Source: Oscillospiraceae bacterium (GTDB taxonomy: Bacteria > Bacillota > Clostridia > Oscillospirales > Ruminococcaceae). From it: a stretch of 64,000 nt of DNA. The translations under genes and the position numbers were made by a program. Positions 2,735 through 61,141 of this stretch are shown here, in pieces. Numbering within the stretch: position 1 is the stretch's first letter; each line of letters begins with the position of its first letter. A model generated the notes under the pieces. It saw only the letters and a list, made by a program, of their open reading frames with translations. It had not been told where the DNA came from and did not search any database. The DNA is taken from contig JAAYNJ010000024.1 of NCBI GenBank assembly GCA_012520915.1, positions 1-64,000 of the forward strand, in the 5' to 3' direction.

Positions 2735-2799
2735 ATTTATTCCTCCCGATGCAGAGTCTTATTCCCGATACTTGTTAAAATTATCACGAACTGTCTTAC

Positions 2800-2828
2800 A
2801 TTATATATAACAATTCGGATATATGAAA
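2800..2828 (-). promoter_or_regulatory. Possible promoter of the GGDEF/EAL gene at 1-2734
   Basis: On the minus strand a perfect TATAAT (2800-2805) lies about 65 bases before the start codon. The -35 at 17 bp spacing is weak (TTTCAT, 2823-2828). Confidence 0.35.
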
Positions 2829-2923
2829 GCAAAAAAACATTCAAATTTTATAATCACGAAATAATTATTAATTACTTTAATATAAACTACGGATTTTGTC
2901 CATTAAACGAAGAACCCCAAAGA

Positions 2924-3016
2924 CCCTCAGAATTCGAGGGGGGTGGTGAAGGCGAAGCCTGAACCGGGGGAGAAAAAAACAACAAAGCGCAGTTTGTCCT
3001 GACGACGAGGGAGGGA
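2924..3016. repeat. Intergenic GC-rich repeat, copy A
   Basis: Contains CCCTCAG, then a G-rich stretch ending GAACCGGGGGAG, then CAAAGCGCAGTTTGTCCTGA and CGACGAGGG. The same order, with small changes, recurs at 3501-3622, where the tail reads CAAAGCGAAGTTTGTCCTGA then CGACGGGGGGAG. Imperfect, non-coding and confined to this interval within the window. Confidence 0.6.
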
Positions 3017-3021
3017 TAATT

Positions 3022-3075
3022 CATACTTTTGACTGCAAAAGTATGCAAAACATGGGGAGTTCCGACTCTCCCCAT
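3022..3075. repeat. Two adjacent hairpins
   Basis: First: CATACTTTT (3022-3030), six-base loop, AAAAGTATG (3037-3045), a perfect 9-bp stem. Second: ATGGGGAG (3052-3059), eight-base loop, CTCCCCAT (3068-3075), a perfect 8-bp stem. Neither is followed by a clear T-run, so they are listed as structural repeats and not as terminators. Confidence 0.55.
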
Positions 3076-3274
3076 ACCCCTAAACGGATTTAAGCTTCGG
3101 CTGAAAAGTTTTAACTCGATTAGCTGATTTTTTTGCTTTTTTAAAGACGGGTAGTATTTTCGTACGAATAAGAAAGATAAAGCCTCACCGAGAACTTTTC
3201 TAAACGCCGATGCGATTATTATTTAAAGGTTTAATAAAATAATAATTTACTTAATATTATAAATAGCCAAAAAG

Positions 3275-3360
3275 CCCCCCCTCAGACTACCTGTGCTCTG
3301 TGAGTACCTGTGCCCTGCGGGTACGAGGGAAGTGAATACCGCAAAGTGACAAGCGAAAGA
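3275..3360. repeat. Intergenic GC-rich repeat, copy B
   Basis: CCCCCTCAGACTACCTGTGC begins a copy with a partial internal duplication: GTACCTGTGCCCTGCGGGTA repeats the preceding CTACCTGTGCTCTGTGAGTA. It continues as CGAGGGAAGTGAATACCGC and ends with GACAAGCGAAA. The beginning and end match copy C (3501-3650). Confidence 0.6.
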
Positions 3361-3414
3361 GCATTACATTGTAACAAGCTTCTTATAAATAGAATGAGTA
3401 TATCTAAATTTCTA

Positions 3415-3467
3415 CCCTCCCTCAGGTTTCTTCGAAACCAGCTCCCTCGGTCAGAGGGAGCCTCAGG
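3415..3467. repeat. Hairpin-rich repeat segment
   Basis: CCCTCCCTCAGG is followed by a GGTTTC-TTC-GAAACC hairpin (3425-3439) and then GCTCCCTC-GGTCA-GAGGGAGC (3441-3461, perfect 8-bp stem), closing with CCTCAGG. The CCTCAGG boxes at both ends and the paired stems look like a small repetitive element of the kind scattered between genes in gut Clostridia. That comparison is from memory and not from a search. Confidence 0.55.
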
Positions 3468-3500
3468 AAAAGGTTTTAGCTTTAGCGAATAGCTACAAAG

Positions 3501-3650
3501 CCCCCCTCAGATAACCTGTGCCCTGTGGGTACGAGGGGGGTGGGTCGGCGGAGTCGAGCCGGGGGGAGTGATAAAATATCTATTTGAACAAAGCGAAGTT
3601 TGTCCTGACGACGGGGGGAGTGAAGACCGCGGGGAGACAAGCGAAATATG
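3501..3650. repeat. Intergenic GC-rich repeat, copy C
   Basis: The longest copy: CCCCCTCAGATAACCTGTGC, CCTGTGGGTACGAGGGGGG, GTCGGCGGAGTCGAGCCGGG, then GTTTGTCCTGACGACGGGGG and GACAAGCGAAA. It carries both the front half seen in copy B and the GTTTGTCCTGACGACG tail seen in copy A, so copy C may be the full unit and A and B truncated ones. Confidence 0.6.
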
Positions 3651-3661
3651 TTCGCGTTAAA

Positions 3662-3694
3662 AACTTAATCCCCTCGAAAGAAGGGGACTAAGTT
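3662..3694 (-). terminator. Terminator of the ZnR-TPM gene pair
   Basis: A 13-bp stem with one mismatch (3662-3674 with 3682-3694, 7-base loop) contains an AGGGG/CCCCT core. Read leftwards it is followed by GTTTTT. It lies 45 bases after the stop codon at 3740. Confidence 0.65.
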
Positions 3695-3739
3695 GCAAAT
3701 TATATGTTGCTTTTATCCTCTTAATAATTCGTTTATCCG

Positions 3740-4537
3740 TTAAAAAGAGTGACCGCCGGAGCTTCCGCCCCCGCCTCCTCCGCCGCCTCCGCCGCCTCCG
3801 CCTCCGCCGGAGGATGAGGAATCGGAGTGACGGCTTCTTCTCTGCGATATCATAACCGGGTTTATTACTTTGATAAAATCGGTTCTGTCCGCAATACCTG
3901 CGCCTTCGACTACCTGCTTTCTGTCGATTTCCCTAATCGAAACATTTCTCTTTCTGTTTATTGTAACCAATAAAAAGTTAATCAATAAACCGAGACCTGC
4001 GGCCATGAGCGCATTTGTCACATGTCTCATCGGTACGGATATCTTTCCGCCTCTAAGGAGTATTAAAACTTGATTGAAAGCCTCGTTTGCGCATTCGAAA
4101 TACTCTTCTTTACTTGCGAATTTATAGATGTTGTCGGTAATCTCGTACGATCTCGTGTTGTTTATCGTCTTTGCAAAACTGCCGTCGGAGTAGAACTGAA
4201 TCATTCTGTTGTCCATGTCTATCAGGAAAAGCGTTCCGGATTGAGCACCGAAAAGCGTGAAGTATGTGTTTTCCGCGAGATACTCCGCCGTATGTATATT
4301 TTCATTGACGGTGACAAAAGCCGCATGTCCGTACTCCGTCACTTCTTTCATATTCGCGAGCAGCTGCTCCTCTTCAATTTCGCTGAGAAGATCCGCGGAA
4401 TCATCGATTACGACCATATTGCCGTTATCGGCGGTGTACTTTAATAACTGTTCTCCGTTTGCAAAAACGGGAACCGTAATAATAAACGCAACAATAAATG
4501 TGAGCAGTATCGCAAGATATCTTTTTTTATTTACCAT
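3740..4537 (-). CDS. TPM-domain membrane protein with poly-Gly tail, YdjH-like
   Basis: 265 residues. A signal peptide (about 1-26, ending VFANG) precedes a TPM (YgcG-like) domain at about 36-155, a membrane helix at about 172-193, a charged linker and a tail of 15 consecutive glycines (244-258) ending SSGGHSF. An exported TPM domain, one helix and a Gly/Ser-rich C-terminus are typical of YgcG/YdjH proteins. Its start lies 11 bases inside the end of the zinc-ribbon gene upstream, so the two are co-translated. In B. subtilis YdjH works with the zinc-ribbon membrane protein YdjG in a membrane-stress complex, and the same order here suggests an equivalent complex. The biochemical function of this TPM domain is not known. 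Confidence 0.8.
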   Translation of the reverse strand: MVNKKRYLAILLTFIVAFIITVPVFANGEQLLKYTADNGNMVVIDDSADLLSEIEEEQLLANMKEVTEYGHAAFVTVNENIHTAEYLAENTYFTLFGAQSGTLFLIDMDNRMIQFYSDGSFAKTINNTRSYEITDNIYKFASKEEYFECANEAFNQVLILLRGGKISVPMRHVTNALMAAGLGLLINFLLVTINRKRNVSIREIDRKQVVEGAGIADRTDFIKVINPVMISQRRSRHSDSSSSGGGGGGGGGGGGGGGSSGGHSF

Positions 4538-9633: not shown

Positions 9634-9708
9634 TGGAGCTACTGGTCGGAATCGAACCGACAACCTGCTCATTACGAGTGAGCTGCTCTGCCATTGAGCC
9701 ACAGTAGC
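9634..9708 (-). tRNA. tRNA-Thr (anticodon CGU)
   Basis: 75 bases including an encoded CCA. The acceptor stem GCTACTG pairs with CAGTAGC, the anticodon stem GCTCA/TGAGC closes loop CTCGTAA (anticodon CGT, reading ACG), and the T-loop is TTCGATT. Discriminator U fits threonine. It has its own promoter (9722-9750) and terminator. Confidence 0.95.
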
Positions 9709-44714: not shown

Positions 44715-45740
44715 CTATTTTATAATACCGCCGGCAACAACAACATCTCCCCAATATATAACGGCGGATTGCCCGGGAGCAGCCACCGGCTTGTTATCAA
44801 AATATACCGTTATACTGCCATCGTTCAACTTCGGCCTGCAACGGTAAAAGTTCTTTGAATAGCGCGTTTTCGCTCTGTAGTTATTGTTTTCGGAAAATTT
44901 GTGAAAGGGGTTGATAATCGTATCGGTAAGCTTCAGCTCGGAGACCGGCAAGTCTTCAATCTCAGAGAGCACTACATCCGACCCGCTGATTTTCCTGACA
45001 TACAACCTCTTATCCGAAGAAACGCCGAGACCTCTCCTTTGACCGACGGTATAGTGTTCGATTCCTTTATGTTTGCCGAGTATTCTTCCGTCGTTGTCTA
45101 CAAAATTTCCTCTGACTCCGAAATAGCCGATACCGTTTATAAATTCAGCATGATTGTTTCCGTCAATAAAACAGATATCCTGGCTTTCGGGGTCTGATGC
45201 ACTCGAAAGATTTGACAATTCCGCCATTTTCACTACGTCGCTTTTTAAATGCTCGCCCAAAGGAAGAATCAGCCTGGACAATACCCGTTGCGGAAGTCGA
45301 TACAGAACGTAGCTTTGGTCTTTATCGGGATCTTTTGCGGTACCGATAAAACAGCCGTTATTTTTAATCACCCTGGCATAGTGTCCGGTTGCAATATAAT
45401 CGGCGGAGATTTGTTCAGAGTACTCCAAAAGGGATTTGAACTTGACCTTTTCATTGCATACGACACAAGGATTAGGTGTGATTCCTTTCGAATATGATTC
45501 CGCAAACGGGATTATAACACTGTTTTTAAAATCATTCCTGACATCCGCTATGTCAATTGAAATTGAAAGTTCATCGGCAGCTTTTCGGACTTTTGAAACA
45601 TCACCGAGATGTGACTCGGACATGATACAGAAGAATCCGCAAACCTCATATCCTGAAGCTTTCAACAGATTGCAGCTTATTGCCGAATCCACCCCGCCGC
45701 TTATCCCGAGGGCGACCTTTCCTTTTAATCCCGCCTTCAT
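44715..45740 (-). CDS. mnmA: tRNA-specific 2-thiouridylase MnmA
   Basis: 341 residues from ATG at 45740; TTG at 45746, overlapping the rnhA stop, is an alternative. PP-loop GISGGVDSAI near the N-terminus, catalytic cysteines in NPCVVCNEKVKF and DICFIDGN, and the C-terminal beta-barrel. It thiolates U34 of Lys, Glu and Gln tRNAs. Being followed by glnS is fitting, since tRNA-Gln is one of its substrates. Confidence 0.95.
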   Translation of the reverse strand: MKAGLKGKVALGISGGVDSAISCNLLKASGYEVCGFFCIMSESHLGDVSKVRKAADELSISIDIADVRNDFKNSVIIPFAESYSKGITPNPCVVCNEKVKFKSLLEYSEQISADYIATGHYARVIKNNGCFIGTAKDPDKDQSYVLYRLPQRVLSRLILPLGEHLKSDVVKMAELSNLSSASDPESQDICFIDGNNHAEFINGIGYFGVRGNFVDNDGRILGKHKGIEHYTVGQRRGLGVSSDKRLYVRKISGSDVVLSEIEDLPVSELKLTDTIINPFHKFSENNNYRAKTRYSKNFYRCRPKLNDGSITVYFDNKPVAAPGQSAVIYWGDVVVAGGIIK

Positions 45741-60777: not shown

Positions 60778-60805
60778 AAAAAAACAGCCTTCAGGCTGTT
60801 TTTTT
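60778..60805. terminator. Bidirectional terminator, secG versus rnpB
   Basis: AAAAAAACAGCC, loop TTCA, GGCTGTTTTTTT. The symmetric A/T flanks let it end both secG (plus) and RNase P RNA (minus, two bases after its 3' end). Confidence 0.92.
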
Positions 60806-60807
60806 AT

Positions 60808-61135
60808 GAGCAGATCTGTAAGCCGAGTTCTGTCGCGAATGACGATCTATCTGGTCCGCCCGTCGCCGGGTCGGATCTTGCCACGCTTCGGGGACGCAGG
60901 GCATGCTTAACCCCCATGTCGGTGTTGCTCCGGATAGGGTTTACATGGCCAATACAGTCGCCTGTATGCCGGTGAGCTCTTACCTCGCCTTTCCACCCTT
61001 ACCCAAATTTGGGCGGTATCTCTCTGTTGCACTATCCCTAAGGTTGCCCTCGGCTGCCGTTAGCAGCTATCCTGCCCTGTGGAGCTCGGACTTTCCTCGG
61101 GATTTTAATAAATCCCGCCGCCATTCAATCTGCTC
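60808..61135 (-). ncRNA. rnpB: RNase P RNA component, A-type
   Basis: About 328 bases on the minus strand. The P1 helix pairs GAGCAGAT at the 5' end with ATCTGCTC at the 3' end. Universally conserved segments are visible in order: GAGGAAAGTCCGAGCTCC (P4 5' strand region), ACAGAGAGATA, AGGGTGGAAA, and the 3' P4 region CAGAACTCGGCTTACAG. The fold matches the common A-type layout of Clostridia and not the B-type of Bacillus, judged by eye. It is the ribozyme that matures tRNA 5' ends. Promoter at 61142-61169. Confidence 0.93.
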
Positions 61136-61141
61136 ATACAA

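Follow-up and report, generated by a model that had tools for sequence, protein, structure and literature searches.

Dual-hairpin intergenic repeats in an Oscillospiraceae genome may be copies of a tiny element carrying a DUF559 nuclease gene

Short palindromes whose origin is unknown are repeated hundreds of times in many bacterial genomes. The mover described for such repeats is the Y1 enzyme of the REP/REPIN-RAYT system (repetitive extragenic palindromic sequences [REP], their doublets [REPIN] and the REP-associated tyrosine transposase [RAYT]), as set out in the available text of Nunvar 2010 (PMC2817692) and Bertels and Rainey 2011 (PMC3116915). Here we describe a case in which that enzyme is absent or unlinked. 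An intergenic repeat stretch lies at positions 2924-3650, between two leftward-reading genes, in 64,000 nucleotides of an Oscillospiraceae bacterium (assembly GCA_012520915.1, contig JAAYNJ010000024.1, positions 1 to 64,000; the whole stretch analyzed, hereafter the window). We consider it probable that these repeats are non-autonomous copies, similar to REPINs or to miniature inverted-repeat transposable elements (MITEs), and fragments of a dual-hairpin element that carries a single DUF559 gene and is moved by the encoded nuclease. Such a tiny element may be an unrecognised route by which bacteria spread short palindromic repeats.

A gene-bearing copy lies elsewhere in the same genome, where about 0.55 kb of contig C12 (45479-46024) comprise an A end, a gene of 122 amino acids and an inverted B end. 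The protein matches Pfam DUF559 (PF04480; E = 1.2e-30) and is the only match of the genome at E ≤ 1e-3. By comparison of copies, a basic end spans about 50-60 bp and consists of a first hairpin (HP1), the dinucleotide TG, a second hairpin (HP2) and a tail. The A end runs from HP1 (AAAGCCCCCCTC...GAGGGGGG) through TG and HP2 to a G-rich tail (GGGGGGAGGGA), and the B end has an identical layout on the opposite strand (GGCTCCCTC..GAGGGAGC-TG-HP2-CTGAGGGAGGGA). Placed in inverted order with their tails inward, A and B ends form a gene-less element of about 200 bp, as at window positions 3273-3463, where the A half is worn. Mini-hairpins (CCTGTGCCCTGTGGGTA type; CCTGTGCCCTG.GGGTAC pieces) sit singly or in tandem inside HP1 loops. 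HP2 varies in sequence among copies with its pairing kept (GGTGAAGGCGAAGCCTGAACC, GGTCGGCGGAGCCGAGCC, GATATGACGAAAGTCATATC). HP2 pairing was assessed on B cores, RNAalifold on the A-end alignment having recovered HP1 alone (7 pairs, nearly no covariation). In a set of 15 different B cores, drawn from several genomes, pairing holds in 96% of cells and covariation is 0.73, a value that 0 of 500 shuffles reach, compared to 0.20 when shuffled and no higher than 0.09 when slid; cruder measures were weaker, with changed-pair counts reached by 54 and further pair types by 38 of 500 shuffles. A palindrome kept while its sequence changes is a hallmark of REP/REPIN-RAYT systems, and HP2 displays it. Folded as single-stranded DNA, the window element does moderately better than shuffled sequences (z = -2.3; 4 of 200 shuffles equal it).

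The repeats are dispersed through the genome (1.9 Mb in 32 contigs, 96% complete; the window belongs to contig C18). The original prediction would have fallen to a purely local duplication had its third copy (copy C, 3501-3650) found no counterpart elsewhere; the search returned 48 matches at E ≤ 10 and 32 at E ≤ 1e-3 (23 on C12, 4 on C18, 1 on C20, 2 on C30 and 2 on C32), and with copies genome-wide that explanation was dropped. The units found by regular expressions in 187.6 kb of sequence numbered 13 (A), 15 (B), 3 (C) and 10 (D). The spacer of the window's gene-less element (3330-3416, plus strand) recurs at C12:13886-13957 (82%), between A and B ends, and at C12:42375-42435 (85%), where it precedes a B end. 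Since separate places on C12 share this spacer, whole units have seemingly been duplicated into differing surroundings. Matches on C18, C20 and C30 lie near the contig start, and those on C32 in the last 5 kb; contig breaks at repeats may explain these positions. Clustering on C12 (112,960 bp, which also carries the DUF559 gene) may reflect local spread or an assembly effect. We also considered C12 as a foreign contaminant. The best matches of its ClpB (69-70%) are in the family to which the window belongs, an argument against contamination; in the sole same-genus genome (75% complete) there is no close copy, the best match being 47%, and the contig may still be foreign.

Inverted repeats surround DUF559 genes in other Clostridia as well. 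Matches at E ≤ 1.5e-12 numbered 45 in 31 of 293 genomes of the class, and 44 loci were examined, the fragment in genome G108 being left out. We scored inverted repeats between the 350 bp upstream and the 350 bp downstream, with 220 shifted positions as controls: 35 of the 44 loci reach the 99th percentile of the controls (28; maximum 34). With 150-bp flanks, 28 of 44 lie above all 274 control open reading frames (ORFs; maximum 28). At many loci the gene start lies no more than a few bases from the left tail, and the final codons of the gene extend into the right end. A gene flanked by two inverted palindromes that are also dispersed without it characterizes REP/REPIN-RAYT systems; here the same arrangement is found with DUF559 in place of RAYT. 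Genome G192 has one DUF559 gene, and the right end of that element recurs at 15 or more further places (40 of 60 candidates scored); the 11 copies read comprise tail-to-tail doublets, head-to-head doublets and single ends. A near-constant element of about 106 bp in G053 and G083 has an interchangeable HP2, and some of its copies are enlarged. Intergenic regions in the genus of these two genomes are mosaics of several repeat families, one inside the HP2 of another.

Gene and repeats also occur together at the level of whole genomes. Repeat carriers among the 293 genomes numbered 10 by the B-end pattern (its reversed control gave 0 in every genome listed), 12 by the G192 right end and 31 by a non-coding left end, with a union of 40. 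The right- and left-end searches scored at most 3 candidates per genome, and their copy numbers are lower bounds. Strong DUF559 matches, here counting the G064 and G108 fragments, are present in 6/10 B-end carriers compared to 25/283 other genomes, in 12/12 right-end carriers compared to 19/281, and in 22/31 left-end carriers compared to 9/262. For the union, the figures are 29 of 40 carriers and 2 of 253 non-carriers (p about 1e-28), with the qualification that the right- and left-end queries derive from DUF559 elements, which makes the query genomes positive by construction, and that related genomes are not independent. In both non-carrier exceptions the gene itself is next to hairpin ends whose arms differ, on either side in G277 and solely on the left in G263. 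When genomes with matches listed only beside DUF559 are removed, the left-end set stands at 18/27 compared to 13/266, and the right-end set, also without its query genome, at 8/8; counted by genus, the left-end set gives 14/21 compared to 8/160 (p = 1e-10). Full-length units carry DUF559, repeat carriers are mostly gene carriers, and the repeats are present in almost all genomes that have a strong DUF559 match.

The structure predicted for the DUF559 protein (pLDDT 89) is similar to 3hrl (E = 4e-6) and to I-Bth0305I, a homing endonuclease (3r3p; E = 1e-4), and weakly similar to Vsr (1cw0 and 1vsr; E about 0.1). Profile, predicted fold and conserved residues agree in placing DUF559 as a predicted Vsr-like PD-(D/E)XK nuclease. 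Alignment of 39 proteins gave 17 invariant positions, among them R16, T20, E23, W27, Q41, D50-F51-Y52, E61, D63, H67, D76 and R92. A defence-system role was set aside, PADLOC having returned weak nuclease-model matches for two of three proteins and none for the third. Directly left of the C12 gene, about 45390-45468 resembles, by eye, the 3' end of a second DUF559 gene.

Several observations suggest mobility. Between different families of Clostridia, DUF559 proteins reach 93% identity (contamination of draft genomes could contribute). Among DUF559 relatives in viral contigs (the best 80 of 142 kept; the 24 closest contain 20 scorable loci), flanks scoring 28 or more occur in 13/20 of the closest, 0/56 of the others and 2/160 control ORFs. 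Plasmid and phage records numbered 38 and 2, respectively, of which 10 and 2 were fetched; with unannotated gene borders set by eye, 7/12 loci score 28 or more, and 26 control ORFs reach at most 23. In Deinococcus proteolyticus plasmid pDEIPR03, hpaE shares a 4-bp overlap with an oxidoreductase gene. The corresponding two genes of Deinococcus sp. NW-56 (oxidoreductase 80% identical) are separated by a 511-bp gap that contains a DUF559 gene between palindromes. A DUF559 element is also present on pDEIPR03 (protein 87.5% identical), but at the opposite end of the oxidoreductase gene, beside hpaB. The two plasmids therefore represent a filled and an empty junction at the level of genes, not a base-exact site. 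Similar arrangements of DUF559 and palindromes occur in Alphaproteobacteria, Deinococcus and viral contigs. In Picosynechococcus pAQ6, Sinorhizobium pSymB and Azospirillum, the DUF559 genes are found amid palindromes of the CCCCTAAATCCCC and CCCCTCACCC-AACCCTCTCCCC types, which we take to be common dispersed repeats of cyanobacteria and proteobacteria.

We propose that the autonomous form consists of a dual-hairpin A end, one DUF559 gene of about 120 amino acids and an inverted dual-hairpin B end, about 0.55 kb in all. In single-stranded or extruded DNA, the ends could fold through both hairpins and through pairing of the two tails, CTCCCTC with GAGGGAG. DUF559 would then recognise the folded ends and nick or cut there, after which host replication or recombination would copy the unit into another intergenic place; gene-less copies would be moved in trans. 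If recognition is partly structural, HP2 would be free to change its sequence as long as pairing is retained. Cutting of the ends, mobilisation in trans and the copying step are the parts we infer. In a wider proposal, DUF559 represents a new transposase class in which a single Vsr-fold nuclease moves dual-hairpin repeats, and is the hidden mover of several of the most common intergenic palindromes found in bacteria: CTCCCTC in Clostridia, CCCTCACCC-AACCCTCTCCC in Alphaproteobacteria, CCCCTAAATCCCC in Cyanobacteria and CCCCCTCCC in Deinococcus. DUF559 genes were found beside or between palindromes of these types; that the palindromes are common is our assumption. We regard this proposal as evenly poised between right and wrong. 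If true, an element of half a kilobase whose single gene encodes a repair-type nuclease would be a new chemistry for DNA transposition, a "domain of unknown function" would gain a job, and the spread of palindromes would become directly testable through one gene of 120 amino acids. Categorical newness would stem from the inferred role of the enzyme; should that role fail, the finding would be a REP-like repeat family in which a nuclease gene resides.

Several results weigh against movement by DUF559. Nine of the 44 Clostridia loci fall under the threshold, including that of the window's organism (score 26, with arms unlike in sequence), and one control ORF in the viral contigs scores 80, exceeding 10 of the 13 bracketed loci there. 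Eleven of the 40 carriers lack a strong DUF559 match, including multi-copy G083 and G216; the window-type A-end pattern itself occurs in 2 of 293 genomes, those of the window and G216, the latter without a DUF559 match. Copy-C repeats are absent from 24 of 24 relatives in a search of 25 genomes and from 40 of 40 in a search of 41. Neither an empty site nor a target-site duplication exact to the base came to light; inspection by eye of C12 and other element copies revealed no base-exact duplication, and synteny between G053 and G083 gave a mosaic of several repeat families with no clean single insertion. In PMC12907096, a mismatch-repair role is proposed for the Caulobacter DUF559 protein VsrA, and thus not every DUF559 need be of the repeat-linked kind. 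DUF559 could instead be a Vsr-like repair enzyme that tends mismatches or hairpins of these palindromes, so that its link to them is maintenance and not movement. The kinship with Vsr, the HP2 exchanges on a near-constant backbone in G053 and G083, as gene conversion or repair might produce, and the mini-hairpins inserted within HP1 loops are in keeping with that role. We nonetheless find it improbable, as it explains neither the place of the gene between two ends nor the filled and empty Deinococcus junction.

Alternatively, DUF559 could be a gene of homing-endonuclease type that has invaded the spacer of older palindromic repeats as a passenger, the repeats themselves having spread by other means. 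I-Bth0305I is among the closest solved folds, 11 of the 40 carriers lack a strong match, and doublets occur in tail-to-tail and head-to-head order alike. Against this, strong DUF559 without repeats is found in just 2 of 31 genomes, both with a hairpin end at the gene, and the distant DUF559-like relatives in viral contigs (0/56, among the best 80 of 142) are unbracketed, which leaves the passenger hypothesis possible yet unlikely. It is harder still to see the repeats as REP elements moved by RAYT, a Y1 HUH transposase, with DUF559 a chance neighbour. Inverted palindromes, doublets, mosaics and one linked gene do match REP/RAYT as described in the accessible parts of PMC2817692 and PMC3116915, and Y1_Tnp is slightly enriched in the left-end set alone (24/31 compared to 157/262; p = 0.04), a further point against the DUF559 interpretation. 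In the union there is no association (28/40 carriers compared to 153/253 others; p = 0.16), and Y1_Tnp (PF01797) has no match in the window's genome or in carriers G083, G129, G216 and G050, among others. After this family search and association test, we dropped a RAYT origin as very improbable. Movement by the DUF559 nuclease is the interpretation we retain.

Within the window, the three copies (2924-3016, 3275-3360 and 3501-3650) and an additional hairpin segment (3415-3467) were recovered where originally predicted, in a neighbourhood rightly described as free of a transposase: a Y1 transposase is missing from the whole genome, and the sole strong DUF559 match is on a different contig. The family is dispersed, mosaic, recombining and intergenic as claimed; calling it non-coding overlooked the linked DUF559 gene. 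Its modules do come in different combinations, which resolve into A ends, D half-ends and B ends, and the full unit is an A end, interior and B end instead of copy C. An A end at 2919-2975 (plus strand) carries HP1, TG, HP2 GGTGAAGGCGAAGCCTGAACC and a G-rich tail, its HP2 being that of the A end of the DUF559-bearing C12 copy. A D half-end (2981-3016, plus strand) consists of hairpin ACAAAGCGCAGTTTGT, CCTGACGACG and a tail. The gene-less, presumably non-autonomous element (3273-3463, plus strand) has an A half without HP2 and tail, its HP1 (3273-3329, plus strand) enlarged in the loop by two mini-hairpins (CCTGTGCTCTGTGAGTA, CCTGTGCCCTGCGGGTA); beyond the spacer follows a B end (3417-3463, minus strand) with HP2 GGTTTCGAAGAAACC. 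On the plus strand there are also a second A end (3497-3571), with one mini-hairpin in its HP1 loop, and a second D half-end (3587-3624). CCCTCAG starts at 2924, 3279, 3419 and 3504, and GACAAGCGAA at 3348 and 3636, all on the plus strand. GTTTGTCCTGACGACG is exact at 2992 and 3598 and has 4 matches with up to 3 mismatches (100 shuffles: mean 0.46, maximum 3). As a weak point, the CCCTCAG-gap-CGAGGG pattern alone gives 1 window match, yet also occurs in 3 of 100 shuffles. The exact 24-mer of the A end had one match, in an unrelated genome, among genomes of 84,980 species (the window's own possibly excluded). The A arm sequence therefore looks nearly species-specific, while the architecture is widespread.

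A separate repeated module (TTCATACTTTTGACTGCAAAAGTATGCAAAACATGGGGAG...) follows the first copy (3012-3120, plus strand), with more than 100 bp at 92-95% in three C12 places; shorter pieces lie at one place on C30 and at two others on C12. A known structured RNA was discarded as an explanation for the repeats, as Rfam gave no curated structured-RNA match within 2750-3735 at E ≤ 0.1. The left neighbour gene starts at 2734 and runs leftward past the window edge (at least 911 amino acids); by eye, its product reads like a GGDEF/EAL-type protein. The right neighbour (3740-4537, leftward, 265 amino acids) has no match in the same-genus genome. Elsewhere in the window, the minus strand carries a class A RNase P RNA (60803-61136) and a tRNA (9637-9708). 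On C12, about 57000-88000 is almost repeat-free between two repeat-rich parts, and its genes, named by eye, look like those of an integrative conjugative element. Two similar large surface-type proteins (C12:96846-98894 and 99757-101652; first 50 residues near-identical) lie beside repeat copies, and several small lipoprotein-like genes alternate with repeats at C12 31-39 kb.

Searches of the open-access literature (subscription papers and preprints lay outside them) turned up no report of a link between DUF559 and transposons or palindromic repeats. As far as the available text of the REP/REPIN-RAYT papers shows, the likeness to that system lies in short intergenic palindromes, inverted doublets and mosaics, and in a single nuclease gene between two inverted repeats that is outnumbered by gene-less copies. 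The enzyme here is a predicted Vsr-like nuclease, while theirs is a Y1 tyrosine transposase; each end here has two hairpins, the second free to vary in sequence, and no GTAG-type head was seen among the copies read. Since the enzyme is unrelated to RAYT, we do not file the DUF559 element as a member of REPIN/RAYT. With the MITEs of DDE insertion sequences it shares gene-less copies, inverted ends and presumed movement in trans; it differs in that the bracketed gene is DUF559 and not a DDE transposase, and in that target-site duplication is not established here. In sequence and predicted fold, the enzyme is similar to I-Bth0305I (PDB 3r3p), a homing endonuclease of the Vsr fold (EDxHD). Unlike I-Bth0305I, the gene here is bracketed by inverted dual-hairpin ends that are also present in many gene-less copies.
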